Source of the DNA: Lamellibrachia columna
Taxonomy: Eukaryota > Annelida > Polychaeta > Sabellida > Siboglinidae
Direction: 5' to 3'
DNA length: 64,000 bases
Assembly (NCBI GenBank): GCA_963662155.1
Contig: OY759267.1
Span: 33,832,976-33,896,975 of the forward strand
In this document: piece after piece, positions 3,380 to 62,296 of the stretch
Layout of the letters: each line of letters begins with the position of its first letter
How positions within the stretch are numbered: position 1 is the stretch's first letter
Notes under the pieces: generated by a model
What the model was told of the DNA's origin: nothing
What the model saw: only the letters and a program-made list of their open reading frames with translations
Databases searched by the model: none
Made by a program: the position numbers and the translations under genes

Positions 3380-3475
3380 CTAGCGATGTCCGACAACTCT
3401 AAAGGGGTAAGACCACTATAGACCTTACAGTTTATTGTTCCAAACGAAAATATAGTGTATTAAATTGGCCACTCT
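3380..3475 (+). mobile_element. Fragment of block P (upstream half)
   Basis: 'GATGTCCGACAACTCT' to 'ATATAGTGTATTAAATTG' matches 6350-6430 almost base for base and 59300-59370 more distantly. It is an orphan piece of the same transposon family. Confidence 0.65.
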
Positions 3476-5160
3476 TCCTCCTTTAGTAGGTATGTGACAA
3501 AAAAATTCAACCTACATGGATAGACATCAATTGAGTATCATTGTACAGAGCCTGAAAAAAACTTTAAAATGCCTTTGAGATATTTGTTCTAGGTTGAATA
3601 TTAGACAAGTTATGACATTTTAAAGATTAGGTGCACCACCCGTTTTTCGGCCTTGTTTTACTAGAAAAACAAAAGAAAAGTTGTGACCTTTTGGGCCAAT
3701 TATGGTTCACTTTGAGAATACAAAGTGTCATAACTTTTTTAATACTGAAGAGATTCTAATGAAACTTTAGGGGAGATAGCCCCTTTAAAACACAAACTGT
3801 TGATGCAGTCTTCACTTAATTCATGATTTAACTAAATCATCAATTAATGATCTTAATTACTTTGATTGATAAACAATACACATTAATTGATAAATTAAAA
3901 TATCAGAATGCAACATTTCCCCCCAATTTTTATTATAATATTTTTTTCATTGCATCTATACCAAGAAATAACAAATGTGATCATAGTACACTGTTTCTTT
4001 AGCTTTTTTCTATCATAACTTGATATTATTATTAATTAATAATTAGCTAAATTAGTGAATATCAACCGTTTCAGGACAGACCTGAATTCAATAAACCTCT
4101 GACGTAAAAATCATGCAAAGTAAAGACATGTAAGGTTCTGCATATCAAGATATTATAATTAGTTCACCCTTAATTAACTGTCTGCCGTAATCGACTGACT
4201 CACAGGCCCATACGTTTTTTTATAGTTTTGATTGATTTTTTAGGGGTCTTTCATGTATTTTTTCAAAACTTCACTCAATAACTACCCAGCCTAAAAAATT
4301 TGGGTAGGCTTACTATTAATATCATGAATAAAGTAGAAACAAACGTTTAGAAAGTTCAAGTAAATGTATGAAGTAATGATAATTTTTTTTTAGCAGAATC
4401 AACAACCCACAAAATTAACTTAAATTCATAAAATAGAAGGTGCTAAATAATACAATACACCAAAAAGAATTATTTTAGTATGATCATGGTGGGCCACGGT
4501 CATTAAAACGATGACAAACAGGGGATTGTCGCTATGAAATTCAACCCGATCAACCATTTGTCGGTTTGACATGAAATTTTGCTAACTCTAGAAAACAATG
4601 TGCTAATAGTTTAATTTGCCTCAGATTTGGCACACACATAGACAAGTATATGGAAATACAAATTATAAAGGTTTGAAAGAAAAATTTAGTTACCTTCAGG
4701 TAAATGGTCGATGACTTTGACAGTCAAAAACTTTGACGTAAATATTTTTTGACTTCTACAAATCGGATTGGAAAATTTCGAAAACGACGCGTCAGCGGAA
4801 CATGTTAACTACATCATCACAATGAGTGTTCTCCGGGAGCTCCTAAAATACGCCAGCCAAACGCGCAGCAAAAACACGGTCACCGGGCGAACGAACGAGC
4901 ACGGAGATCAACGTCGCGGCCAAAGCGATTAGCGCGTATGTAGGCCGATTGTCACGTACCTACCTTTAGTCTTTACTAATCGGAGCTTTGCTTGTCTAAA
5001 ATTTTCACAGTAGAGATTCCCCCGCTCCATAATTCAGCCTGTCAGTGGCTGCACAATTTATTCTGTATGTATAGAGCCACAATATCCTGGCAGCGACTTT
5101 GTTGTTCTACTACGACCCCTATTGTTTGTGATGCATTTTGCCCAGTATGATAAGACCCAG
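3476..5160. other. No recognised gene
   Basis: Very AT-rich (many runs of A and T) with no convincing frame or spliced exon. The last 300 bases are GC-richer and directly adjoin the truncated end of the MULE fragment, so part may be transposon-derived. Confidence 0.4.
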
Positions 5161-5170
5161 TGATTCTCGC

Positions 5171-5809
5171 TTAGCTATATCTGCTGTCCATGGATATGGT
5201 TACTGGAGCATCTTCAGGTAATCCTCGTAGCGTATTAATTGTCTTCATGTGGTCACGCCTTTTCGCCAAGTCTGCCAAAGTCATAGTTGCTGTCGCATTG
5301 TCAACTTTGTTTGCAGTCCGTTGCATGCTACTTCGGTACGGTGGTGGTACATCTAAGCTAGCAATTATCACACATGCACTGTAAATCTAGGAACAGCACA
5401 CAATTAACTGTCAATAAGGGACGCATGCTCTGCAATGCACTCGTTATACATCTGTGTTGTTTTGTCTCTATGCATAATACGCATTTCTAATTGTGAGTCA
5501 TCTTTCTTCAGGTATGTCGTTGTCAAGTCATCAGCAACACGTTTCTTCGGTCTCATGAGTTTGGCGCCATCCGATTTGCTCTCAGCATCTGGGATTTCGA
5601 TGAGTCCACCTGGTGTAACTTTGGCGACTCTTGTGAATTCGGCTTGCGTGAGTCTTGGCATCCACATGCTTGGTGTGGAATTGTCTGCTACGTCTTTCTT
5701 GGACGTGTGCACAGTGTGCCCTTTCTGAAAGCCACATCTCCTCACATTTTTGGCTATTCGGAACTTCACTTTTCTTCTCCATGCTGATATCTGTATCAGA
5801 GTCAAACAC
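5171..5809 (-). pseudogene. Mutator-like (MULE) transposase fragment, diverged subfamily
   Basis: Minus-strand frames at 5404-5805 and 5171-5371 align in order with the larger transposase at 47272-49606. 'MWMPRLTQAEFTRV' corresponds to 'VWLPRLSQDDFDRV'. 'MYNECIAEHAS' corresponds to 'MWNDCFKEHAS'. 'LRGLPEDAPVTISMDSRYS' corresponds to 'LRGLPANAPINISMDVRYN'. The piece between the two frames (about 5372-5404) has lost the cysteine-containing segment (SCTACHYKS in the other copy). The sequence breaks off at 5171 just after the first catalytic Asp, and the extreme N-terminus is frameshifted. Amino-acid identity to the other copy is only moderate, so this is a separate subfamily, not a recent duplicate. 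It is non-functional. Confidence 0.8.
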
Positions 5810-6344
5810 TTTTACTATGTTTTGAATGTTTAAATGTTTTTCTTCGATTTGGTATAACTTTCGTGCCGGTTTGTGAGATGTCGGAAATTAATTAGGGCAC
5901 GGACCACAGTCAGAATCCATCCACCATTACATACATAAAGAATCCCAAGGAAAAAATTAATTGTGCAGATAGGGTTTATTTGTGAGAGCAGAAATTGTGT
6001 GGATGAGGGAGTGGAAGTGATGTTCTTGTGCACAGTAGCATATAAGCTTTGAAATGATGCCATTTGTCAGTAGGTATGCCAGTTGCGTAAGGACACAGTG
6101 GCTGTTAGGCAGGATGTACTCATATTTGGGAAACCGGAGAATTTCATGGCAGAAATGCAGGGGCCTCATGCTTTGAAGCAATTTATGCGAAAAGTAGGTA
6201 TGTCATTTTCACGAATTTCACACACCAGGTGTTTTAGTGGGTCTGTAATTTTCTGTGAATTTCAAAAAAAATTGTAGGATAAATTTTCAATGTAGACGCA
6301 AGAACGTTATAATGGTCGTCTATGGGAAAAGTGACCGTGGTCCG

Positions 6345-6800
6345 TGCCAATGTCCGACAACTCTGAAGGGGTAAGACCACTATAGACCTTCCAGTTTATT
6401 GTTTCACACGAAAATATAGTGTATTAAATTGTGATATTTGAATTTAAATAATCTGTATGATGTGACATTAGTGCAATTGAACAGGCATGTTCACAAGTTT
6501 GTTTGTAGAAGCTATTGGCTTTGAAAAGGTGCATTTTTTAGAGTGTAACAGGCGGAGGGATTCATTTGAATTTTTCTTCTGTGCACCACGTGGGCGCATG
6601 AATGCATGGCTATGTTTGTTAAAATTGATGGGCATCGCACGTCGGGGCGTTTTAATAGAGCTGGAGGTATGCGGTTTTGACAAAACTTGGTCAGCATTTC
6701 AATGAGATGATGGCAGTTGCTGTAAAAAATAAGAATTTTTGATGGTTATGTTTTCTTATCAAACAAAACCTTAAGTTTCAGGCACGACTTTTCACACTTA
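6345..6800 (+). mobile_element. Block P: 5' region of the endonuclease/MULE transposon
   Basis: The longest copy of block P. 'GTCCGACAACTCTGAAGG' to 'GTGGGCGCATGAATGCATGG' matches 59300-59545 and 60640-60865. The following part to 'AAAACCTTAAG' matches 46326-46520, directly upstream of the His-Me ORF. A frame at 6487-6705 ends next to a possible donor (GCTGGAG|GTATGCG), but no protein family is recognised. It is probably a leader or promoter segment of the mobile element. Confidence 0.65.
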
Positions 6801-38213: not shown

Positions 38214-40133
38214 CAGCAAACACATAACATTTTTATAACATTTGATAAAGGTTATATACATGTTATAACGAAAACATTTTTCAATAACATTTCGTAAATG
38301 TAAATAAAATGTTATGTAAAATTTCAGAAACATCATACAGATGTTTTTAAGATAACGTAATTTTACATTTTTCAGTGATGTTTTTAAAACATCATCAAAA
38401 CATTCCCATCAAACACAATAATGTTTTAAAAACATCAGAAAAATGTTTCCTCAAATGTCATAATAATGTTTTTTTAATGTTATAATGATATCAAAATGTG
38501 CCATCTTGGAAACATTTGAAAAACATTTTTGAACAATGTTTTATTAAAACATATATGTAACATCATAAAAACATGTTTGACAAAGGAACATAAACATCAC
38601 AAAAATGTTATTTTAATGTTTTATTAAAACATTTAACTTTGAAAGGTATCAGAAAAGCTTTGATTTTATGGCTGAACCCAGCCAATACTATACTGCTTTA
38701 AAAACATCAGAATTTTTTTTCTAAAATGTCATAAAAATGTTTTTTTTAAATGCTATAATAATATAAAAATGTGCCATCTTTGAAACATTTGAAAAACATT
38801 GTTGAACAATGTTTTATTAAAACATATATATAGCATCATAAAAACAATTTTGACAAAGGAACATAAACATCACAAAAATGTTATTTTAATGTTTTATTAA
38901 AACATTTAACTTTGAAAGGTATCAGAAAAGCTTTGATTTTATGGCTGAGCCCAGCAAGCACAATACTGTTTAAAAAAACATCAGAAAAATGTTTTCTAAA
39001 ATGTCATAAAAATGTTTTTGTATATTCTATAATGATATAAAAATTTGCCATCTTGGAAACATTTGAAAAACATTGTTCAAAAATGTGTTATTAAAATATA
39101 TATATAACATCATAAAAACATTTTTGACAAAGGAAAATAACATAAAAAAAAAATTATTTTAATGTTTTATTAAAACATTTCACTTTGAAAGGTATCAGAA
39201 AAGCTTTCATTTTATGGCTGAGCCCAGCAAACACAATACTGTTTTAAAAACATAAGAATTTTTTTTCAAAAATGTAATACATTTTTTTTTTTAATGTTAT
39301 AATAATATCAAAATGTGCCATCTTGGAAACATTTGAAAAACCTTTTTGAACAATGTTTTATTAAAACATATATATAACATCATAAAAACATGTTTGACAA
39401 AGGAACATAAACATCACAAAAATGTTATTTTAATGTTTTATTAAAAATTTCACTTTGAAAGGTATCAAAAAAGCTTTGATTTTATGGCTAAACCCAGCAA
39501 ACACAATACTGTTTTAAAAACATCAGAACAATGTTTTCTAAAATGTCATAAAAATGGTTTTTTTATGTTATAATAATATCAAAATGTGCCATCTTGGAAA
39601 CATTTGAAAAACCTTTTTGAACAATGTTTTATTAAAACATATATATATAACATCATAAAAACATGTTTGACAAAGGAACATAAACATCACAAAAATTTTA
39701 TTTTAATGTTTTATTAAAAATTTAACTTTGAAAGGTATCAAAAAAGCTTTGATTTTATGGCTAAACCCAGCAAACACAATACTGTTTTAAAAACATCAGA
39801 AAAATGTTTTCTAAAATGTCATAAAAATGTTTTTTTAATGTTATAATAATATCAAAATGTGCCATCTTGGAAACATTTGATAAACCTTTTTTGAACAATG
39901 TTTTATTAAAACATATATATAACATCATAAAAACATTTTTGACAAAGGAGCATAACATCACAAAAAATTTATTTTAATGTTTTATTAAAACATTTCACTT
40001 TGAAAGGTATCAGAAAAGCTTTAATTTTATGGCTGAGCCCAGCAAACACAATACTGTTTTAAAAACATCAGAAATTTTTTTCAAAAATGTAATAACATTT
40101 TTTTTTTTATGTTATAATAATATCAAAATGTGC
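38214..40133. repeat. ~272-bp satellite, about seven units
   Basis: The landmark 'CCATCTTGGAAACATTTGA' recurs at 38501, 38774, 39048, 39318, 39589 and 39862 (spacing 270-274). Each unit contains 'CAGCAAACACAATACTG', 'AAAACATCAGAA' and several self-complementary 'AATGTTTTATTAAAACAT' motifs. The first unit is more diverged. The array ends abruptly at 40133 at the step 'AAATGTG|CGAAGCGAAGC'. Confidence 0.95.
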
Positions 40134-46201: not shown

Positions 46202-46325
46202 GTAAGTATATTTCCATTGACCTGTGTGCTTATTATATTATCATGATCTTACTATAAGCAATAGTTGTTTATTGATTACTAAACAATTTTTTTTCTAACA
46301 AATTCCCTTAACTTACAAAATCGTG

Positions 46326-46567
46326 GGCGCATGAATACACAGCTATTTTTTTTGTAAATATTGACGGGCATCGCACATGGGGGCATTTTAAAAGAGCTGG
46401 AGGCATGTGATTTTGATAAACGTTGGTGAGCATGTCAATGAGATGATGGCAGTTGCTGCACATTTATTTCAGAATTTTTGATGGTCAGGTTTTCTTATAA
46501 TCAGACAAAACGTTAACATGGCCACCAATGCAATTCCCAACTGTGGTCTGACTCCAAATAGAGTGTC
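46326..46567 (+). promoter_or_regulatory. Block P leader of the endonuclease gene
   Basis: 'GTGGGCGCATGAATACACAG' to 'AAAACGTTAACATGGCCACC' matches 6590-6790 and 2690-2870. It directly precedes the His-Me ORF, so it is its 5' leader or promoter. The splice donor kept in other copies (GGAG|GTATG) has become GGAGGCATG here. Confidence 0.6.
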
Positions 46568-47047
46568 ATGGCAACGGAAACAGAAAACATGGATGTTGAT
46601 TTTTGTAAAAAGTACACTGCAAAATTACAAGAAAAGGTGGTATTGTCTGCCAATGGGCAGTGTCAGTTGTGGACAGGGTGCAAAAAAGGGAAATTCAGTG
46701 ACTATGGTGTGATTAATTGCCGTTTTGAGTGTGGCTACAGAACGGTTACAGTGCATCGTTTAAGTTATATGCTTGAACACAAAATGACACGTGTTGAACC
46801 TGGCTTAGATGCCAGTCATCTTTGTCATAACAGTCTGTGTCTGACAGCAAGTCATATCTCTATGGAGCCACATTCCATAAATAACAACAGGCAATATTGT
46901 GTTAGTCAAAATGTATGCTTTGGTCATGCACCATATCCAAAGTGTATGTTGCAATTCAAGGTATTTCAATGGCAATGCAATAGTAAAACCTACATTTTTC
47001 TAGATGTGTTGAATCCTTCAGTTTTTTCAAAGTGTCGTCTGCTGTAG
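46568..47047 (+). CDS. His-Me finger (His-Cys box) endonuclease, transposon-associated
   Basis: 159 codons without interruption. 'CQLWTGCKKGKFSDYGVINC' is followed by 'TVTVHRLSYMLEH', 'LDASHLCHNSLCLTASHISM', 'EPHSINNNRQYC' and 'CFGHAPYPKC'. This is the zinc-binding-loop homing-endonuclease fold of the I-PpoI type (Pfam zf-His_Me_endon), with the His of VHRLSY as likely general base and an Asn of the NNNR run as metal ligand. One zinc cluster is Cys/His in SHLCHNSLC-x4-H; another is C-x5-C-x-H-x5-C. The domain ends near 46957. The last 30 residues look unlike the family and may be read-through of a donor (TTCAAG|GTATTT). The start is either 46568 or the second Met at 46589. It converges on the transposase at 47272. 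Confidence 0.9.
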   Translation: MATETENMDVDFCKKYTAKLQEKVVLSANGQCQLWTGCKKGKFSDYGVINCRFECGYRTVTVHRLSYMLEHKMTRVEPGLDASHLCHNSLCLTASHISMEPHSINNNRQYCVSQNVCFGHAPYPKCMLQFKVFQWQCNSKTYIFLDVLNPSVFSKCRLL

Positions 47048-47271
47048 TCAATCTTATGCAGTTGTGTATGTCAGCCCATGCTGAGTGATGTCTTCGAATG
47101 TCGATTGATGTATAGCTCACAAGGTGGCACCATGTGCCAGTCATGGTCCATTGTCTGTTGGTGGTTTCTTGTATTGTGGTTGCAGGTCTATGAGTGATGA
47201 AACTGGGAGAAAATAGAAAGTTCACATTTGTAAGAAGTGTTCTGTTTTCTGTTTGTTTCATAATCTACCCT

Positions 47272-49606
47272 CTACTTTCTGCTGGCATAACTGTGATCAG
47301 CAGACTTTCGTGATCGCAATGAATAAAGATGATCTTCCCTGTTTGCAGTTGGCAGTGTTGTCTTTCTGCGGCGACTCCTTGTGACCACTGGCTTAACTAC
47401 TGCTGCTGGCGTTTCTGAAGCTGGCCTTTTCTTCCCTTTACGAGTAGATGGTTTTGGATCAAGCTGACACTTCAGGTATCGATCTTCTGAACGGCGGTTT
47501 CTGTTTGAATCGAAGTAGTTCTGCATGCGCTTTAACTTGGTATGACGGATATGCAGACGCACTGATGATCGACGTTTGTATTGTCTCTGGTATTCCACCT
47601 CATGCTGGATTTGCTTGACAGCTCTAGCGACCTGTCCACCTCTCGTAATAGGACAATGTACATTCTCCAACTTACGCAGCATTGAATTCCCCGCTCCATA
47701 ATTTATGCGATCGATCACTGAACTCACCCGTCCATGTGCATTTCTACTGAATTTAACATTCTTCGGCAATGAAGCACTGAATGATCGGTTAATGGATTCA
47801 TTCTTGTCAGCTTGTCAGTCTGTGTCGTGTCATCTGGAGTGCTGAATTTCCAAGTCGCATTTCTATTAATCCTTTAAGTGTTGCTCGGTCTTCATCTGTC
47901 ATATTGAGTCGTGTCAGGCCACATGCCTTCAAATGCTGTGACCTTTTCCACCAGTTGTTTCGCTTGCCTCCACAACAGACAATTCCATGTCGGTGGGTGA
48001 CAGTTCTGACATGAGCCAGAATAACAGTCCAGTGTTGCTTGGATTATTTTTGGCATCTTAGTAGTTATCATTCTAATGTCACCAGCATAAAGTGTGGCCT
48101 TTTCCACCAGTTGTTTCGCTTGCCTCCACGACAGACAATTCCATGTCGGTGGGTGACAGTTCTGACATGAGCCAGAATAACAGTGTTGCTTGGATTATCT
48201 TTGGCATCTTAGTAGTTATCATTCTAATGTCACCAGCATAAAGTGTAGATTTTCTGGCATCGTGTTCTTACATCCTCTGCAAAAATGTTCTTGTTTTCAG
48301 CTCTCACCATGGCATTCTCTCCCGGGAACATTCTGGATGAGAAAGATGCTCTCATGATATGTCAGAACTGTGTCTGACCGAGATGTGTTGTGTCAGCCTG
48401 CCGTTCTGCCGCGACTGTTGGCATGGCATCCTGTAACCCATGAAATGCTTTCGCATCACCGTCTGTTGCAACGAATTTTAGTCCGACCTGTTGTTGGGCA
48501 AAGCTCACTCCGATTTGGCGGCCTATTTCATATTCTGACATTGGATCGACCACACGAATCGTGGCTGTACATCCTTGATGGCCTGTGCACGACACATTTT
48601 GACCTTGATTGCGAAGTGATGAGCCTAGTTTGCATAGCTTGTTTTTCATGTGAAAACCTAGAATCTCATGCTTGTCCGTCTGCCATTCAATCGCGGTTCC
48701 CACTGCTTGACTTGCACTCTGTCCACAACCGTAGCTGTTTTTCAGGGATGTTGAGTTGTACCTCACATCCATGCTTATATTGATTGGTGCATTTGCTGGA
48801 AGACCACGCAGAACATTTATCTCTGGGTTTTCCCTCTTCTGCTGTAGGTCATCAGTCGTGGACTGAGAAGTAATTGTGGCAACCCGGTTGGATGTCCTTT
48901 GCATCCCGCTTCGACTTGGGGGAGGTGTGTTTGTTGTGGGCAGAATGTGTCGCAACTTTGTGTTTCCCATCGTTGTATCTTGTAGTCCTACATGGATGGC
49001 TACATTTGGAGCACACGGTTTCTGACCACGACTGCCCGTGTTTACTTCGGAATACAGTTTATACATACGTGACTTGTAGTGACAGGCTGTACAGGACAAT
49101 GATTGTTGCCAACACAAACCAAATTTTTTCTCATGTACTTCGAAGTGTGGAAGAATACATGTGTCCTCTCTGCTAGCATGCTCTTTAAAGCAATCATTCC
49201 ACATTGCTGCATTTTTGTCCACACTAAGTAGACGCATTCCAGAAACTGCATGAGTATCTGTCTGTACGTCAGCTTGAAGATAGATGTCTGTTAGGTCAGG
49301 GCATTGATCAAGCTGTGGCCGTAGAATTTTGCTCGTGCCTGGCCGACCCTCTGCGTCTGAAACTGCCAGCAATCCTGAAGGAGTGGTTTGCACCACTCTG
49401 TCAAAGTCATCCTGGCTTAGCCGTGGCAACCAAACCCCACTGTTAACCCCATTGGGTTCCTGTTGGATTGCTGCATCTGATGGTTTGTGGTAACAGTGGC
49501 CGGTCTTGAAGCCACCAATTTTCATCTTAATTCCACCAGCAGGTGGACATTTCTCCTCACTCTTTCTACTACTACTACTACTACTATCATGTGTTGTCTC
49601 CTCCAT
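47272..49606 (-). pseudogene. Mutator-like (MULE) transposase, nearly full length, decayed
   Basis: On the minus strand from 'MEETTHDSSSSSSRKSEE' (ATG 49606; an upstream Met at 49654 is also in frame). The order is 'SGVWLPRLSQDDFDRVV', a CxxC segment ('SLSCTACHYKSRMYK'), 'VGLQDTTMGNTKLRHIL', and the first catalytic Asp in 'NISMDVRYNS' (about residue 280). Then come 'MKNKLCKLG', 'CTGHQGC', the second Asp in 'KFVATDGDAKAF' (about residue 382) and 'ADTTHLGQTQ'. This is the PF20700-type Mutator-like transposase domain of invertebrates, a DDE/RNase H-fold cut-and-paste enzyme. The frame breaks at 48362, and a tandem duplication at 47942-48246 disrupts the next part. The C-terminus is open again from 47769 ('INYGAGNSMLRKLENV', then a basic tail with 'RSRRRK'). 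It lies convergent to the endonuclease, with about 225 bp between stops. Confidence 0.85.
47942..48246. repeat. Tandem duplication inside the transposase gene
   Basis: A block of about 155 bp ('CCTTTTCCACCAGTTGTTTC' to 'CACCAGCATAAAGTGT') occurs twice head to tail with a few differences, including a 5-bp gap (CAGTCCAGTGTTG versus CAGTGTTG). It destroys the reading frame. Confidence 0.9.
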
Positions 49607-49719
49607 TGTAAAATCCCAGGTAAATCCAAGTAAAATTACTAATGAAAGTGACAAAACCGTTATCTGAATGCAACCACGTCTAATACGCCTGAGAAAACAG
49701 ATGACAGTGACAGGAGACC

Positions 49720-50110
49720 GGCATATTAGGGGGGGGGGGTGGGGACATATTCAAACTAGTGCAGCCTCCCTCTGATAAGTTACATCAAAGCAGAACAAGT
49801 CACATTATAATATAATTACTTAGCAGTCAACTTTTGTTTATTTCAGTTAATTAGACACAGTCACCTTTACTCAAGTCCATGTGAAGAGCACACATCTATT
49901 GGGAGTTGAGAAAATCCTGGACAGGCCCAGCTGTTATCTGATATGGCCTAGTGAGCTGACGTAACTGTTTCACATGGAAGGTGAGTTGTTTTTGAGGACT
50001 CCACTAAGTAGGATATGTAATGTTATGCAATTCGACAAGTTGCGGTGTCTGGCTTTTCAGTAATTCACACTCAAAGGTGATATTTGGGTCTGTTTACATA
50101 GGTGTATTGT
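49720..50110. repeat. Segment S, copy 1 (flank upstream of MULE gene)
   Basis: From the G-run after 'GCATATTA' through 'CTGATATGGCCTAGTGAGCT' to 'TATTGTGGCACCAGGTAAA'. Other copies are 58565-58975, 59915-60305 and 61225-61630. It always lies on the side from which the MULE gene would be transcribed, so it should contain the outer end of the mobile unit. I saw no inverted partner of it in block P. Confidence 0.85.
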
Positions 50111-50124
50111 GGCACCAGGTAAAA

Positions 50125-50620
50125 AAATATACTTTCCTTTTCAGATTTTTCAAAATGTTTCTGTCCAACATGAATCCCTCTACCTTTCCCCGAGCATTCG
50201 CTCCCTGTTGTATCCAGCATCGCATTTCTACCTCTGAATGCTCATCCTCATTAACCATTCCTCCACGTTACACAAAGCCATCCACTTGGTTGAACTCCTC
50301 ATCATCCAAACTAATGTTCAAGTCCTCTCTCTGATGTCAAACACACATCTCTTCTGTCTTCTCCCGGCTCATTATCGGTCCGTGCTTCTTGAACATCCTC
50401 TTCCATTGCTCCAACACTTCCTGTAGTTCTTGTTTTTTGTCTGCTATCATGGCCAGATCGTTTGCATACATCCCCTTTCTGAGAACATCCTTCATGCTGA
50501 TCTTCCTGCTGATTAGTGCCACCACCATGATAAAGAGTAAAGGGTCATTTCCGTGCCTCTAACCGATGTTAACTTTAAACTCTTCCGACAACCCATATCC
50601 AACCACAACTCTTGTTTTTG
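50125..50620 (-). pseudogene. LINE reverse transcriptase fragment, copy 1
   Basis: The minus-strand frame 'MVVALISRKISMKDVLRK', 'MYANDLAMIADKKQELQEVL' and 'MFKKHGPIMSREKT' is the RT palm and thumb of an RTE-like non-LTR element; the catalytic YADD has become YAND. It is followed (lower coordinates) by 'VDGFV' and thumb sequence with frameshifts. The same D-to-N change is in copies 2 (57127-57318) and 3 (61771-62001). Confidence 0.85.
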
Positions 50621-50822
50621 TTCTCAGGAACATGACAGTTATGGGTGTTGCACGCCATGACACAGAACTGACTAAATACAACCAACTCATTACAAAGTCA
50701 GACTCCCAGATAAGTCAGACTCCCAGATAAATTATTTTGTAATTTTTGTAAACTATTATAATGATCAAACTACAACACTGACTGATATGTATTGCCTGTA
50801 TAGACTTGATGTCATCATTCCA

Positions 50823-52136: not shown

Positions 52137-52940
52137 AATGAAGATATTGCCATATGGTTTCTCCTGGAAGTGTTTAAGGACAATTAATGCAGACTGTTCT
52201 GGCGACACAGCAAATGATCAAGTGTTGACTGAATTAATACCATTCAGTGAACCATGTGTAGGTGTTAAATCTGTTATTGACCAGACTTGAGCGGATCTAC
52301 ACACTGGGTAGTGGGTCCAGGAAGTGTATGGAAGGAGACCATTTTCTTGCTGAAGCTATCTGCCGCATTTGATACCATTGGTCACAGGACAACTTATTAA
52401 AAGTGTGTCAATGTGGTGTGGCATATCTGGAACAGAGCTGGTTCTCATAATATTTAACTGATAGATGCAAAAGAATGAAGATAGCGAATTGTTTCTCAGC
52501 TACGCTCCCTACTTCACGTAATGTTCCTCAGGGTGTTTCACTCTCTACGCTACTCTACTTGGCTCAGTTATCCAACGTCACAACTTGGATCACCAAGTGT
52601 ATGCTAATAAATCACAGACCTATGCTATTTTGGCTACATGAGATACAAATCACTTCCAAAACTAGTTCAGGGATTGTCTCCACAAAATCTTCCATTGGAT
52701 GACAGAGACCACATTAAAGTTAAATGCAAGTAAATCCGAGTTAGTTATTATTGGTGGGGTAAATTTTGCATGTCTATTTGAATCGATTAGGTGCGCACAA
52801 TATGTTGCAAGACGTTTCCTTATGTGTCAGACTTTAGATTGCATGTAGAGAAGCACAGTAAAATCAAAACGTGTGGAAAGCATTAGCTTAACAGTGTCGC
52901 CTGGCTGTTCTTCGATGAGAACAAATTTGCATGTTTGCTG
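52137..52940 (+). pseudogene. L2/CR1-like LINE RT relic, copy 1
   Basis: The frames, much interrupted, give 'LSAAFDTIGHRTTY'-like sequence, 'VSMWCGISGTELVL', 'FLSYAPYFT', 'SVIQRHNLDHQVYANKSQTY' and 'WMTETTLKLNASKSELVIIG'. This is the palm and thumb order of L2-type reverse transcriptases, with YADD degraded to YANK. The second copy is at 63340-64000. Confidence 0.8.
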
Positions 52941-54930
52941 GAGTGCCATAAAACACTAATATTATATAGCCTTTTTGTTTAGGGAGTGACGTAGAGTGAT
53001 ATAATGAAAGCATTGATTTACTAAAATGCAAGGAAGGACATCAACGTAATAATTTACATGTAATTGATTACGGATTGACAGACGTTTGCTACGATGACAA
53101 TAAAACTGATGCCGATTGACCAACTAATGCGAATCGAGAATAATAACCTGAATCTGAATATGTAATGATCGATGTACTTTTGTTTAAAAAATAAGAGTCC
53201 AATGACGTGAGTGACACTTAGCATTATCTGCTATTTGGTTGCACCTCCTATCGGTCGCTGGAGAGACCAATCCACAGTCACCGGGTCTCTTATGGTTACA
53301 TATCGAGCAGCTCTCAGGGGAGAGATTTGTCGGCCCCCAGACCTTCCTGTAGTTCTCCAGCCAAACTACTGACAATCCCTATATGTTGAGCTTGTAACCT
53401 CCTATGACAACACGACAACCCGTTTATATAGTAGGTAAACCTATTTAGCTGAATTTGTGGTGTGAACTCTTGAAACAGGTTAACTTTACATTTAACTGAT
53501 ATAACAACTACTAATTAAACAATTTAGTTAATTAGAAAGTTTCTTATATGGCATAGTTCATGTTGTAATGCTGCAAAGTGTATAACATGCATAAATAATA
53601 TTACTTCTCTATGTTATTGATATTGAATTATGCAGATCTAGTGGTGAAATTATGCGCATGCGCCGGAAGTTATCACTCTAAGATGGCGTCTACTAGAACG
53701 TTGGACGTGTAATTGATATCAACAACCCTACAAAACCTTGTCTTAGGAATACAACACACTCCAAGTGGAAAAGGTTTATTATTATATTGGCAATAGTATC
53801 ATTGAACAGTTGTGATAACTGGTATGTCTGTTTATTATCTATGCATCTAGCAATTCCCACCGCCGTTACTTTGTTAACTGTTACGTTAGCCAACAATAAG
53901 CCAAAACGCATAGAAAGTGTCTCGTCTCCTTGCCAGCAACAGTCTAGCCAAATTTTCGTGCGACTAATACACAGTCATGAGTTGCATCAGAAGCAGAAAA
54001 ACATAGTTGTCACTAATAAGTAATCTGTCCCAATACATTAATCAAAACTCCATATGAAATGATCAATCGTTTGTAGAATGAATAAAATATGTATCAGAAT
54101 TAAAACCATATCAAATATGTGTACTCCGTAGTACAGATATTATTTATCTACAAAGCCAAATAATGTTTATACACAAATCTTCCGCATTCTGGTAGGTCAC
54201 AAAGTCCCTGTTTATAATGCTCCTTATGTTAGTAGCTGTCTCGAATCATCTCTTTCTTCACCAATTTCGTCCGACTGGCTGTCAACGCAATGCATTTCTA
54301 CCTATCTAGATGAGATCAGCTTTTACAGAGAACACCACAGGAAGCACGCAGCGTGTGCTATTGATATACAACGTATGTTGAAGCAGATAACATGCACTCC
54401 AACACGGATGTAGCTCACGAAATGCTATCTTGCACACTCCTCCATATTTCTCCAATTGATAATTCTTCGGTCATGGTAGGCCGTACACCGTATACCAATT
54501 TTTGGAAGAAGAATCACCAACTTCGCATGGATTGCTATATAAGACACGCTAAATGCAAGAACTGCCCGCATGCTGGCTGGTAAACAGGAATGAACCATTG
54601 TGTTCTGTTGTCTGTGCTGGAGGAAGTAATCAACGAACTACGACACGCATTGTCCATGCGCTCGGACGGCGTTGTCCTGTTTGCATAACATAATCTATTG
54701 CAGCACCACGCCTTGACACCTGTCAACGCCCTGAATGACGTTGTAATCCTCACTTAGAAGCGCAATTTCTATGTCGCAATTATTCTGGTATCCTAATTGT
54801 ATCGACACATGCGTGTTGTTCTATTGAGGATACGTAATCGTTCTGTTTACAGCAATTTTCTCAACATGGTTACACCAAAAAATAATAGTACGCATCAGTT
54901 AGTGTACGTTCAGTGTTCAAAGTGTTTTAC
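52930..54930. repeat. Right arm of long inverted repeat (partner 370-2580)
   Basis: Reverse complement of the block at the window start. It follows the LINE relic directly. It does not appear after the second duplicated block because the window ends first. Confidence 0.8.
53184..53375 (-). other. Cysteine-containing frame conserved in both inverted arms
   Basis: 'VWGPTNLSPESCSICNHKRP' then 'GDCGLVSPATDRRCNQIADN' is readable here and, with few substitutions, on the plus strand at about 2145-2300. Most differences between copies leave the frame open. It may be a small exon of the element; no family is recognised. Confidence 0.3.
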
Positions 54931-56650: not shown

Positions 56651-57440
56651 CACATTTCTCTTCCACTCTCTTTACTAGTATGTCTGCATCCATCCTTACC
56701 ATGTGGCCTGCCCATTTCATCTTGCTTCTCACCAATCTTCCGGTTGAACTGTTTGTTGCATCACATATTTCGTCAGGTCGTTCATCTTTCTTTCGTCAAC
56801 CCTCTTTGTTCGTGTTATTCGACAAAACCAGAACCAACTTTCAGGTGCTGTTGTTGTTCTGTCAACGCCACTGTCTCCAGATACAGATTAAGGCATGCTT
56901 GTGTAACACAAGCTCTCAGGACTTTCCTTTTCAGCTTTTTCAAAATGTTTCTGTCCAACATGACTCCCTCAACCTTTCCCCAAGCATTCGCTCCCTGTTG
57001 TATCCGGCATCGCATTTCTACCTCTGAATGCTCATCCTCATTAACCATTCCTCCAAATTACACAAAGCCATCCACTTGGTTGAACTCCTTATCATCCAAA
57101 CTAATGTTCAAGTCCTCTCTCTGATGTCAAACCCACATCTCTCCTGTCTTCTCCCGGCTCATTATCGGTCCGTGCTTCTTGAACATCCCCTTCCATTGCT
57201 CCAACACTTCCTGTAGTTCTTGTTTTTTGTCTGCTATCATGGCCAGATCGTTTGCATACATCCCCTTCCTAAGAACATCCTTCATGCTGATATTCCTGCT
57301 GATTAGTGCCACCACCATGATAAAGAGTAAAGGGTCATTTCCTTGCCTCTAATCGATGTTAACTTTAAACTCTTCCGACAACCCATATCCAACTACAACT
57401 CTTCTTTTTGTTCTCAGGAACATGACAGTTCTGGGTGTTG
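56530..57440 (-). pseudogene. LINE reverse transcriptase fragment, copy 2 (longest)
   Basis: Reading from 57440 down: 'VVVGYGLSEEFKVNI', the QG motif as 'RQGNDPLLFIMVVALIS', 'MYANDLAMIADKKQELQE', 'EVEMRCRIQQGANAWGKVEG', 'LKRKVLRACVTQACL', then 'KWAGHMVRMDADILVKRVEE'. This is the RT palm, thumb and C-terminal region of an RTE-like element. Frameshifts and the YAND change inactivate it. It is the only copy of the three that keeps the C-terminal part. Confidence 0.85.
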
Positions 57441-57539
57441 CTCGCCATGACACAGAACTGACTGAATACAACCAATTCATTACAAAGTCAGACTCCCAGA
57501 TAAGTACAAAAGGTGTTGGAATGAACAGGTCAGCCAGGG

Positions 57540-57896: not shown

Positions 57897-58570
57897 TTGT
57901 TCTAATAAATCAGTATTTGCGCTGAGTAGTAATGGCTTATGATTTGGTAACCAGATTGATTTGTTTAATGTTTTTATTTATACTTTCACTGTACATCCTT
58001 CTTGACAAAGGATATTTGATTTTTATGAGCATGCTGTAGTCAAGAAGATTACGTCGTTTATATGAGTACAACCATATGGTAAAATGCATATTGCTCAAAC
58101 AGAGATACATATGAGAGATTGATTTTGTAAATATTTAGCAAATATTCTATTGAAATAATGTTTTTTCTCATAAGCAATTTATACACTGCTTATGAAAATG
58201 TTGACCATATTATTGCATTTATTAAACCTAACTTTTTTTTACCAAACTATCGGTGCTTTTCCTCTTTTTTCACTTATGTTCATGGGTTAGGTTCAGGTAA
58301 AATATTGTTGAGTCACTCTTTCTGTTTTATCTTTCCATACTTTTCTATCGGCTGCCCCCTCTCCATCTTTCATCTTGCCCCTCTCCATCTTTCATCTTGC
58401 CCCTCTCCATCTTTCATCTTGCCCCTCTCCATCATTCATCTTCCCCCGATCTTCTCATATCCCACCTCACGCAGTCCTTCGATCTTAGCTGTTCGTTCCC
58501 CTTTTCTTGCATCCTTTATGTTTTTTCACCTTTTTCTTCCACTCTCTTTACTAGTATGTCTGCATCCAGT
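57897..58570. repeat. Direct repeat, copy 2 (partner 56092-56650)
   Basis: Same sequence, with an internal expansion of a 22-bp unit ('CTCTCCATCTTTCATCTTGC') to about four copies at 58358-58445 where copy 1 has one. Confidence 0.9.
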
Positions 58571-59910
58571 ATATTAGGGGGGGGGGTGGGGACATCTTCA
58601 ATCTAGTGCAGCCTCCCTCCGATAAGTTACATCAAAGCAGAACAAGTCACATTATAACATAATTACTTAGCAGTCAACTTTTGTTTATTTCAGTTAATTA
58701 GACACAGTCAACTTTACTCAAATCCATGTGAAGAGCACACATCTATTGGGAGTTGAGAAAATCCTGGACAGGCCCAGCTGTTATCTGATATGGCCTAGTG
58801 AGCTGACGTAACTTTTTCACATGGAAGGTGAGTTGTTTTTGAGGACTCCACTAAGTAGGTTATGTAATGTTATGCAATTCGACAAGTTGAAGTGTCTGTC
58901 TTTTCAGTAATCCACAGTCAAAGGTGATATTTGTGTCTGTTTACATAGGTGTATTGTGGCACCAGGTAAAAAATTATTATAACTTTCAGTATGGAATAAC
59001 ATCTGGCTATATAGAATTTGATTACAGAACACATGCTGGACTATTCCAAAAATTATGTTACAAGTTCATTCGAGTGAGCTGAAAAAGTGAGTGTATTCGA
59101 GTATCGTACTAGAATACAGACTGTCTCAAGCTGAAGTAGCTCATATATGTGTGTTCTGCCCACCACAGGTGGTGGTTCCTTGTGTATGTAATCAACTCCA
59201 ACAACTAGGTAGGACATAGATTTTTTGCATGAATGCATGATTTTCATTTACCTTTATCAACAGTCTAAATTAAAAAAAATTCTGCACAGTTACCATTTTT
59301 ATTTGGGGTAAGACCACAGTTGACCTTCCTGTTTACTGTATCACACGAATGTAGGGCACGCGAAATTGTGAAATGTGAACTTAATAAATTCATATTATGT
59401 GACATGAGTGCCTTTGAGCATGAATATTCACAGGTTTGTTTATAGAAGCTATTGGCTGTGAAATAGTGCATTTTTTGGAGAGTTTAACTGGCGGAGGGAT
59501 TTATGGGAATTTTTCTGCTATGGGCCACGTGGGCGCATGAATACACGTCGGAAACTGCCAGCAATCCTGAAGGAGTGGTTTGCACCACTCTGTCAAAGTC
59601 ATCCTGGCTTAGCCGTGGCAACCAAACCCCACTGCTAACCCCACTGGGTTCATGTTGGATTGCTGCATCTGATGGTTTGTTGTAACAGTGGCCGGTCTTG
59701 AAGCCACCAATTTTCATCTTAATTCCACCAGCAGGTGGACATTTCTCCTCACTCTTTCTACTACTACTACTACTACTATCATGTGTTGTCTCCTCCATTT
59801 TAAAATCCCAGGTATCTCCAAGTAAAATTACTAATGAAAGTGACAAAACCGTTATCTGAATGCAAAGACGTCTAATCCACCTGAGAAACCAGATGACAGT
59901 GACAGGAGAC
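58565..59910. mobile_element. Deletion-derivative unit U1 (S + T + P + MULE N-terminus)
   Basis: Order: segment S (58565-58975), segment T (58975-59270, not seen elsewhere except U2), block P (59280-59545), then the transposase N-terminus in reverse (59555-59830). The block P to MULE junction is within 'GAATACAC|GTCGGAAACTGCC'. Compared with 46326-49606, about 3.0 kb holding the endonuclease and most of the transposase is missing. U1 and U2 are a tandem pair. Confidence 0.8.
59484..59830 (-). pseudogene. MULE transposase N-terminal fragment, U1
   Basis: 'MEETTHDSSSSSSRKSEEKC' to 'QTTPSGLLAVSD' is nearly identical to the first ~90 residues of the copy at 49606. It then passes into block P sequence ('VYSCAHVAHSRK') and stops. 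Confidence 0.9.
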
Positions 59911-61230
59911 CAGTATATTAGGGGGGGGACATCTTCAAACTAGAGCAGCCTCCCTCTGATAAGTTACATCAAAGCAGAACAAGTCACATTATAATATAAT
60001 TACTTAGCAGTCAACTTTTGTTTATTTCAGTTATTTAGACACAGTCACCTTTGCTCAAGTCCATGTGAAGAGCACACATCTATTGGGAGTTGAGAAAATC
60101 CTGGACAGGCCCAGCTGTTATCTGATATGGCCTAGTGAGCTGACGTAACTGTTTCACATGGAAGGTGAGTTGTTTTTGAGGACTCCACTAAGTAGGTTAT
60201 GTAATGTTATGCAATTCGACAAGTTGAGGTGTCTGTCTTTTCAGTAATCCACACTCAAAGGTGATATTTGGGTCTGTTTACATAGGTGTATTGTGGCACC
60301 AGGTAAAAAATTATTATAACTTTCAGTATGGAATAACAACTGGCTATATAGAATTTGATTACAGAACACATGCTGGACTATTCCAAAAATTATGTTACAA
60401 GTTCATTCGAGTGAGCTGAAAAAGTGAGTGTATTCGAGTATCGTACTAGAATACAGACTGTCTCAAGCTGAAGTAGCTCATATATGTGTGTTCTGCCCAC
60501 TACAGGTGGTGGTTCCTTGTGTATGTAAGCAACTCCAACAACTAGGTAGGACGTAGAGTTTTTGCGTGAATGCATGATTTTCATTTACCTTTATCAACAG
60601 TCTAAATAAAAAAAAATTCTGCACAGTTACCATTTTTATTTGGGATAAGACCACAGTTGACCTTCCTGTTTACTGTTTCACACGAATGTAGGGCACGCGA
60701 AATTGTGAAATGTGAACTTAATAAATTCATATTATGTGACATGAGTGCCTTTGAGCATGAATATTCACAGGTTAGTTTATATATATAGTGCATTTTTTGG
60801 AGAGTTGAACTGGCGGAGGGATTTATGGGAATGTTTCTGCTATGGGCCACGTGGGCGCATGAATACACGTCGGAAACTGCCAGCAATCCTGAAGGAGTGG
60901 TTTGCACCACTCTGTCAAAGTCATCCTGGCTTAGCCGTGGCAACCAAACCCCACTGCTAACCCCACTGGGTTCATGTTGGATTGCTGCATCTGATGGTTT
61001 GTGGTAACAGTGGCCGGTCTTGAAGCAACCAATTTTCATCTTAATTCCACCAGCAGGTGGACATTTCTCCTCACTCTTTCTACTACTACTACTACTATCA
61101 TGTGTTGTCTCCTTCATTTTAAAATCCCAGGTAAATCCAAGTAAAATGACTAATGAAAGTGACAAAACCGTTATCTGAATGCAAAGACGTCTAATCCACC
61201 TGATAAACCAGATGACAGTGACAGGAGACC
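59910..61230. mobile_element. Deletion-derivative unit U2 (tandem copy of U1)
   Basis: Same order and the same internal-deletion junction (at about 60868). The two units therefore arose by duplication after the deletion. U2 passes at 61225 into segment S copy 4 and the large duplicated block. Confidence 0.8.
60602..61165 (-). pseudogene. MULE transposase N-terminal fragment, U2
   Basis: As in U1, but the Ser run is one residue shorter and the start reads 'MKETTHDSSSSSRKSEEKCP'. The open frame runs on for 90 further residues into block P, producing a chimeric but surely non-functional frame. Confidence 0.9.
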
Positions 61231-61634
61231 AGTATATTAGGGGGGGGACATCTTCAAACTAGAGCAGCCTCCCTCTGATAAGTTACATCAAAGCAGAACA
61301 AGTCACATTATAATATAATTACTTAGCAGTCAACTTTTGTTTATTTCAGTTAATTAGACACAGTCACCTTTACTCAAGTCCATATGAAGAGCACACATCT
61401 ATTGGGAGTTGAGAAAATCCTGGACAGGCCCAGCTGTTATCAGATATGGCCTAGTGAGCTGGCGTAACTGTTTCACAGGGAAGGTAAGTTGTTTCTGAGG
61501 ACTCCACTAAGTAGGTTATGTAATGTTATGCAATTCGACAAGTTGCGGTGTCTGGGTTTTCAGTAATCCACACTCAAAGGTGATATTTGGGTCTGTTTAC
61601 ATAGGTGTATTGTGGCACCAGGTAAAAAAATATA

Positions 61635-62100
61635 CTTTCCTTTTCAGATTTTTCAAAATGTTTCTGTCCAACATGACTCCCTCTACCTTTCCCCGAGCAT
61701 TCGCTCCCTGTTGTATCCGGCATCGCATTTCTACCTCTGAATGCTCATCCTCATTAACCATTCCTCCAAGTTACACAAAGCCATCCACTTGGTTGAACTC
61801 CTCATCATCCAAACTAATGTTCTCTTCTGTCTTCTCCCGGCTCATTATCGGTCCGTGCTTCTTGAACATCCCCTTCCATTGCTCCAACACTTCCTGTAGT
61901 TCTTGGTTTTTGTCTGCTATCATGGCCAGATCGTTTGCATACATCACCTTCCTGAGAACATCCTTCATGCTGATCTTCCTGCTGATTAGTGCCACCACCA
62001 TGATAAAGAGTAAAGGGTCATTTCCTTGCCTCTAACCGATGTTAACTTTAAACTCTTCCGACAACCCATATCCAACCACAACTCTAGTTTTTGTTCTCAG
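61635..62100 (-). pseudogene. LINE reverse transcriptase fragment, copy 3
   Basis: 'MVVALISRKISMKDVLRKVM', 'YANDLAMIADKNQELQEVL' and 'ISLDDEEFNQVDGFV'. It has a short deletion relative to copy 1 between 'SREKTEE' and 'NISLDD', and the same YAND defect. Confidence 0.85.
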
Positions 62101-62296
62101 GAACATGACAGTTATGGGTGTTGCACGCCATGACACAGAACTGACTAAATACCACCAACTCATTACAAAGTCAGACTCCCAGATAAGTCAGACTCCCAGA
62201 TAACTTATTTTGTAATTTCTGTAAACTATTATAATGATCAAACTACAACACTGACTGATATGTATTGCCTGTATAGACTTGATATCATCATTCCAG

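Follow-up and report, generated by a model that had tools for sequence, protein, structure and literature searches.

The window analysed here, a 64,000-nucleotide stretch of the genome of the annelid Lamellibrachia columna, contains an open reading frame for a His-Me finger endonuclease facing the remains of a transposase gene. Do these two genes constitute a single mobile element, and to which kind of element would it belong? A sequence-only reading had proposed that an intact endonuclease (46568-47047, +) and a transposase of the Mutator-like (MULE) type (47272-49606, -) are convergent and share the same transposon. The convergent layout is borne out, with 224 bp between the two stops (Table 1).

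Table 1. Coordinates of the features of the gene pair and of related copies in the window (LTDR, long terminal direct repeat)
Feature	Position	Strand	Basis
LTDR of the window family without adjoining genes, possible solo LTDR, right end eroded	6366..6774	+	matches both halves
Inner half of the left LTDR, outer half missing	46322..46555	+	matches 6589-6774, L011 LTDR
Inverted end of the LTDR	46538..46555	+	inverted match to LTDR start 59300-59322
His-Me finger (I-PpoI-type) endonuclease, open frame, 159 aa	46568..47047	+	PF05551, I-PpoI match, residues
Interval of 224 bp separating the convergent stops	47048..47271	.	coordinates
Broken DDD/E transposase of KolobokP type, with a stop, a frame change and an internal duplication	47272..49606	-	PF20700, tblastn with P0033
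Tandem duplication of ~155 bp within the transposase	47937..48246	-	sequence comparison
Internal region on the 5' side of the transposase, cut at 50130 by a duplicated retroelement stretch	49607..50130	.
Tandem array of internally deleted units, same family as the window copy, period ~1337 bp	58566..61633	.
LTDR outer half, fused at 59546 with the N-terminal part of the transposase	59305..59545	+
LTDR outer half in the next unit, identical deletion junction	60642..60867	+

The endonuclease and the transposase

The endonuclease matches PF05551 (E 7.8e-9, Pfam), and its top sequence match in the PDB is I-PpoI (E 0.0077). Zinc-binding cysteines and histidines are part of the I-PpoI-type His-Cys box pattern, and they are present here at C32, C86, C91, C111, C117, H120 and C126. 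The catalytic residues of this box are found as H84, H96 and N105, the reference numbering being H98, H110 and N119 (PMC9587614). The AlphaFold model of the nuclease is poor (mean pLDDT 39.4). An open-frame endonuclease variant that has lost the catalytic histidine also exists (cluster P0002, 47 member sequences), with DVSRLCLNSLC replacing DASHLCHNSLC. Scans of viral contigs for relatives returned a single locus, L001, a phage-like contig carrying a His-Me protein, and a scan of GTDB genomes found none.

An open piece of the transposase (48362-49606, -) matches the Pfam family PF20700, labelled 'Mutator', with an E value of 1.3e-46. A tblastn search with P0033, a full-length relative of ~700 aa, covers residues 8-716 and reaches down to 47275. 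By comparison with this relative, the frame changes near 47809, and seven stop positions are found in the first part of the alignment. Inspection of the alignment and of the window protein reveals the motifs D, LC..CTGHQGC, TDGDA and DTTH. A CCHC zinc finger past the first D and a DxxH past the second are the features described for the transposase of KolobokP (PMC9587614).

Linkage of the two genes across the genome

The genome of the window itself (880 Mb, 30 contigs) was searched from both genes. With the diverged endonuclease P0011 as query, 150 of 1376 candidates were listed, and the first 21 matches (L021-L041) are spread over many contigs and both strands, away from the arrays. A transposase is found tail-to-tail behind the endonuclease in 20 of these 21 diverged copies, including L036, where just its C-terminal end is present; at L041 the convergent partner is missing, a transposase fragment being found instead on the opposite side of the endonuclease. 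Since flanks are common to L021, L028 and L031, and likewise to L032 and L034, the 21 copies represent at most 18 independent insertions. The convergent transposase also accompanies all 9 of the 9 array copies from the same search (L042-L050).

From the transposase side, 62 of 3344 candidates were scored, and 54 of the listed places include the C-terminus. At least 17 of these 54 pair, at near-constant spacing, with one of the listed endonucleases (46 hand-picked places). When 0.9 kb downstream was read for 20 of the other 37, a convergent endonuclease or its remnant was found in 19, some of these remnants spanning just 30-40 residues; L072 has no endonuclease within this distance. L071 and L073 show the pair in a further family, whose transposase shares 45-46% identity with the query. 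A transposase followed on the opposite strand by an I-PpoI-like His-Me nuclease, as observed here, is the convergent arrangement published for KolobokP (Kojima & Bao 2022, PMC9587614). The window also holds, at 4954-6352, remnants of a second, deeper KolobokP-like family, with transposase fragments on the minus strand 82-96% identical to P0045/P0057; within them, 6241-6352 is nearly identical to the sequence preceding the endonuclease at L071.

Two unrelated genes could have become neighbours by chance and been duplicated together with their region, as might be suggested by 10 of 11 ten-kb array loci, where one or both flanks were amplified along with the element. The dispersed pairs already refute this explanation, whose probability is close to nil: diverged copies that differ in their flanks show the same association at nearly constant spacing, and so does the family of L071 and L073. 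The proposal that both genes belong to one transposon thus stands on their linkage and on the outer ends described below. The opposite outcome, in which copies of one gene mostly lack the other, was looked for with both genes, and the linkage held.

The pair was also followed in metagenomes by comparing clusters whose longest contig measures 2.5-5 kb, 42 for the endonuclease and 52 for the transposase (taken from lists of the best 120 of 351, and of 98). Seven endonuclease/transposase cluster pairs have longest contigs of exactly equal length, for a jittered expectation of 1.03 (P 5e-5). Over these seven pairs and one on a longer contig, the protein identities are correlated (r 0.68, P 3e-4). 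This constitutes indirect evidence that the endonuclease-transposase pair is widespread beyond the genome of the window.

Ends of the element and target duplications

Searched by itself, the window yielded no inverted ends that scored clearly better than shuffled sequences; the ends came from dispersed copies. In the sister family formed by the diverged copies, the left end is sharp: in 19 of 21 copies similarity sets in abruptly ~500 bp ahead of the ATG, the other two (L025 and L041) being truncated. The reading was extended in 8 of the 21 loci; 5 of them have a complete or partial right LTDR, and L023, L030 and L033 have none. A 464-bp direct repeat, 98.7% alike, is found at both ends of L026/L054. 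In the sister element, the two convergent genes are enclosed by direct repeats of ~455-464 bp that carry short inverted ends of their own, and the whole spans GGG to CCC. All four copies that keep both ends are flanked by 4-bp target duplications (TATA, TATA, TGCA and TAAA), in a register adopted after an initial 2-bp reading and shifted by one base per side; the case of L024 is weaker, because this copy lies within tandem repeats. These target duplications are those of the sister family; the window copy has lost its ends, and neither target duplications nor an intact right end were observed for the window family. A boundary falling between the two genes was also looked for; in the sister family, ends and target duplications lie outside both.

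At L011, the LTDR of the window family measures 455 bp. The inverted ends of the LTDRs, GG...CC, are imperfect, with 18 of 28 positions matching at L011 and 19 of 28 in the other case. In the tandem at L011, LTDRs start at 3684, 7986 and 9326, with a window-family unit of 4302 bp and deleted units on both sides. The counterpart of the region 5' of the transposase (49607-50130) extends to the right LTDR in the arrays.

Assignment to KolobokP

The transposase had been called MULE-type, and its match to the 'Mutator-like transposase' family PF20700 could indicate a MULE that captured a homing endonuclease independently of KolobokP. Mutator-like elements do possess a related DDD/E transposase sharing this Pfam label. 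However, target duplications in MULEs are 8-10 bp long, and all four observed in the sister family are 4 bp; the paired direct repeats and the nuclease gene are further differences. The long direct repeats with their own inverted ends are those published for KolobokP (PMC9587614), and an independent capture by a MULE is highly improbable. The 4-bp duplications and the long direct repeats therefore agree with KolobokP rather than with MULEs, despite the 'Mutator' label.

As described (PMC9587614), KolobokP has LTDRs of ~450 or ~660 bp with their own short inverted ends (5'-RR and YY-3'), target duplications of 3-5 bp, multimers sharing repeats and solo repeats. Paired long direct repeats with their own inverted ends, 4-bp duplications (in the sister family) and multimers sharing repeats are all observed here. 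As for solo repeats, the LTDR at 6366-6774 has no genes beside it but an eroded right end, and it is at most a possible case. Since the other tested features fit this published kind, the feature in the window is almost certainly a decayed KolobokP DNA transposon, as assigned by anatomy and motifs. Elements of exactly this organization have been known since 2022, and the window element is a further member. The association of a DDE enzyme with a homing-type nuclease, singled out earlier as unusual, is itself real but was already published as KolobokP (PMC9587614); a search of one literature collection for this word returned no other paper. The locus adds a further genome in which a homing-type nuclease is confirmed to move together with a DDD/E transposase in a single element.

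The full element would accordingly read LTDR - endonuclease> <transposase - LTDR, with two direct repeats of ~455 bp bearing their own imperfect inverted ends. Following the published model, the transposase would cut at the inverted ends and insert the element, the I-PpoI-like nuclease would break DNA in or beside an LTDR, and the repair of this break against another LTDR would add or remove units. A homing site within the KolobokP repeat is left possible by the same paper (PMC9587614). The window copy has lost the outer half of its left LTDR, carries a broken transposase and is cut on its right side by a duplicated retroelement stretch.

Internally deleted copies and other repeats in the window

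Two other copies, at 59.3 and 60.6 kb, had been described as keeping the sequence upstream of the endonuclease (block P) and the transposase N-terminus, joined at one breakpoint. The N-terminal part is indeed kept. Block P differs: the window copy carries the inner half of the LTDR and the deletion copies its outer half, with 19 bp only (46322-46340) directly in common. This appears from the alignments of 59305-59545 with 6368-6606 and of 46322-46516 with 6589-6774, and both halves are joined at L011, upstream of a near-identical endonuclease. The junction is shared as claimed, but its two occurrences are not independent: the copies are tandem units 96% alike (58566-60314 vs 59910-61633) and thus reflect one event. 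The letters of this junction recur in 5 of 11 ten-kb array loci (L010, L011, L014, L016 and L017). The outer flank from 50131, common to the deletion copies, is rejected as a marker of the end of the element, since it is a duplicated stretch with a weak match to RVT_1 (E 1.5e-5, below the Pfam cut-off).

Copies of this weak reverse-transcriptase stretch are found at 50131-50715, 56921-57505 and 61634-62188, fused to transposon arrays at the same junction. Direct repeats of 82 bp (3386-3467 and 6350-6431, 95% alike) contain the start of the window-family LTDR together with the same preceding flank, and they are therefore probably one insertion that was duplicated. The window further contains a tandem repeat at 38405-40133, with copies ~272 bp apart and ~90% alike, and an inverted repeat of ~1 kb (1597-2582 and 52939-53920, 85% alike).

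Arrays and selection on the two genes

In the genome, 172 exact occurrences of the nuclease core motif are found (95 forward, 77 reverse; control 0), and the 100 places listed are grouped on C2, C4, C5, C6, C7, C9 and C10. Of the ten array loci whose similarity to the window extends past the element, L012-L015 and L018-L020 share the left or both flanks at 97.7-99.6% identity, and L010, L016 and L017 share the right flank only, the latter two at ~91%. Because these flanks are co-amplified, much of the copy number is accounted for by segmental duplication. Tandem units also exist within L010, L011, L016 and L017, and they fit the unequal-exchange model of the published description (PMC9587614).

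The transposase is broken or incomplete in 12 of 12 array copies examined (11 loci and the window), whereas the endonuclease keeps its frame to the usual stop in 26 of the 28 array copies read, which are best matches and hence biased toward intact ones. The changes in these endonucleases, L018 and L043 left aside, are 7 replacement and 4 silent and indicate no clear constraint; the 224-bp spacer has 10 substitutions (3 of 11 haplotypes with at least 20 differences left out). An open nuclease next to a dead transposase had been thought to hint at different selection or age. The comparison of the two genes gives no support to this idea: in the sister family, the endonuclease has a pooled pN/pS of 0.53 (162 pairs with dS above 0.03, from 21 loci) and the transposase one of 0.48 (21 pairs, from 8 loci). 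Between the window and the sister family, dN is 0.23 and dS 1.6 for the endonuclease, for 0.20-0.23 and a saturated 2.2-2.4 for the transposase. The constraint on both genes looks similar; given this similarity, the best-match bias and the histidine loss in P0002, the contrast is no proof of special selection.

Nuclease cutting of LTDRs, leading to unequal exchange, might have built the arrays instead of passive segmental duplication. The LTDRs shared between tandem units, the 172 motifs and the contrast between open endonucleases and broken transposases point in this direction, yet the scenario is rather doubtful in view of the flanks co-amplified in 10 of 11 array loci, the lack of clear constraint in the 7 replacement and 4 silent changes, the P0002 cluster devoid of the catalytic histidine and the choice of copies favouring intact ones. 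With its broken array transposases and numerous nuclease motifs, this family nevertheless provides test material for the open half of the KolobokP model.

A conserved block in the LTDR

Aligned over 457 columns, the window-family LTDR at L011 shares 68% identity with the sister-family LTDR at L026. A 62-bp block near the inner end is identical at 59 of 62 positions, against 64% elsewhere, a conservation reached in 0 of 20,000 column shuffles (neighbour effects ignored). The sequence AAAACGTTAACATGG lies in this block, with TTAA at its middle as in the I-PpoI overhang. The LTDR end of the deep family at L071 matches the two LTDRs too weakly to indicate retention of the block there (scores 41 and 47; shuffle maxima 42 and 43). 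The conserved block is possibly new. It could be a nuclease site or a transposase site, belong to the endonuclease promoter or reflect past gene conversion, and it offers a concrete candidate target for testing the KolobokP model. It is conceivable, if unlikely, that the homing-type nuclease and not the transposase now spreads the family by cutting this block, with AAAACGTTAACATGG as core, in its own LTDRs, inter-repeat repair driving the arrays. If true, a transposon would have turned into a nuclease-driven repeat.

Comparison with known systems

Judged by its residues, the window endonuclease shares the catalytic and zinc-binding pattern of I-PpoI and other His-Cys box homing endonucleases. 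Its gene is carried by a DNA transposon instead of a group I intron. With KolobokP (PMC9587614), the elements studied here have in common direct repeats of ~450 bp with their own inverted ends, convergent genes, 4-bp duplications and multimers sharing repeats. The window family differs in residing mostly in large clusters, with co-amplified flanks and with the examined array transposases broken, on a scale absent from the portions of the KolobokP description consulted.
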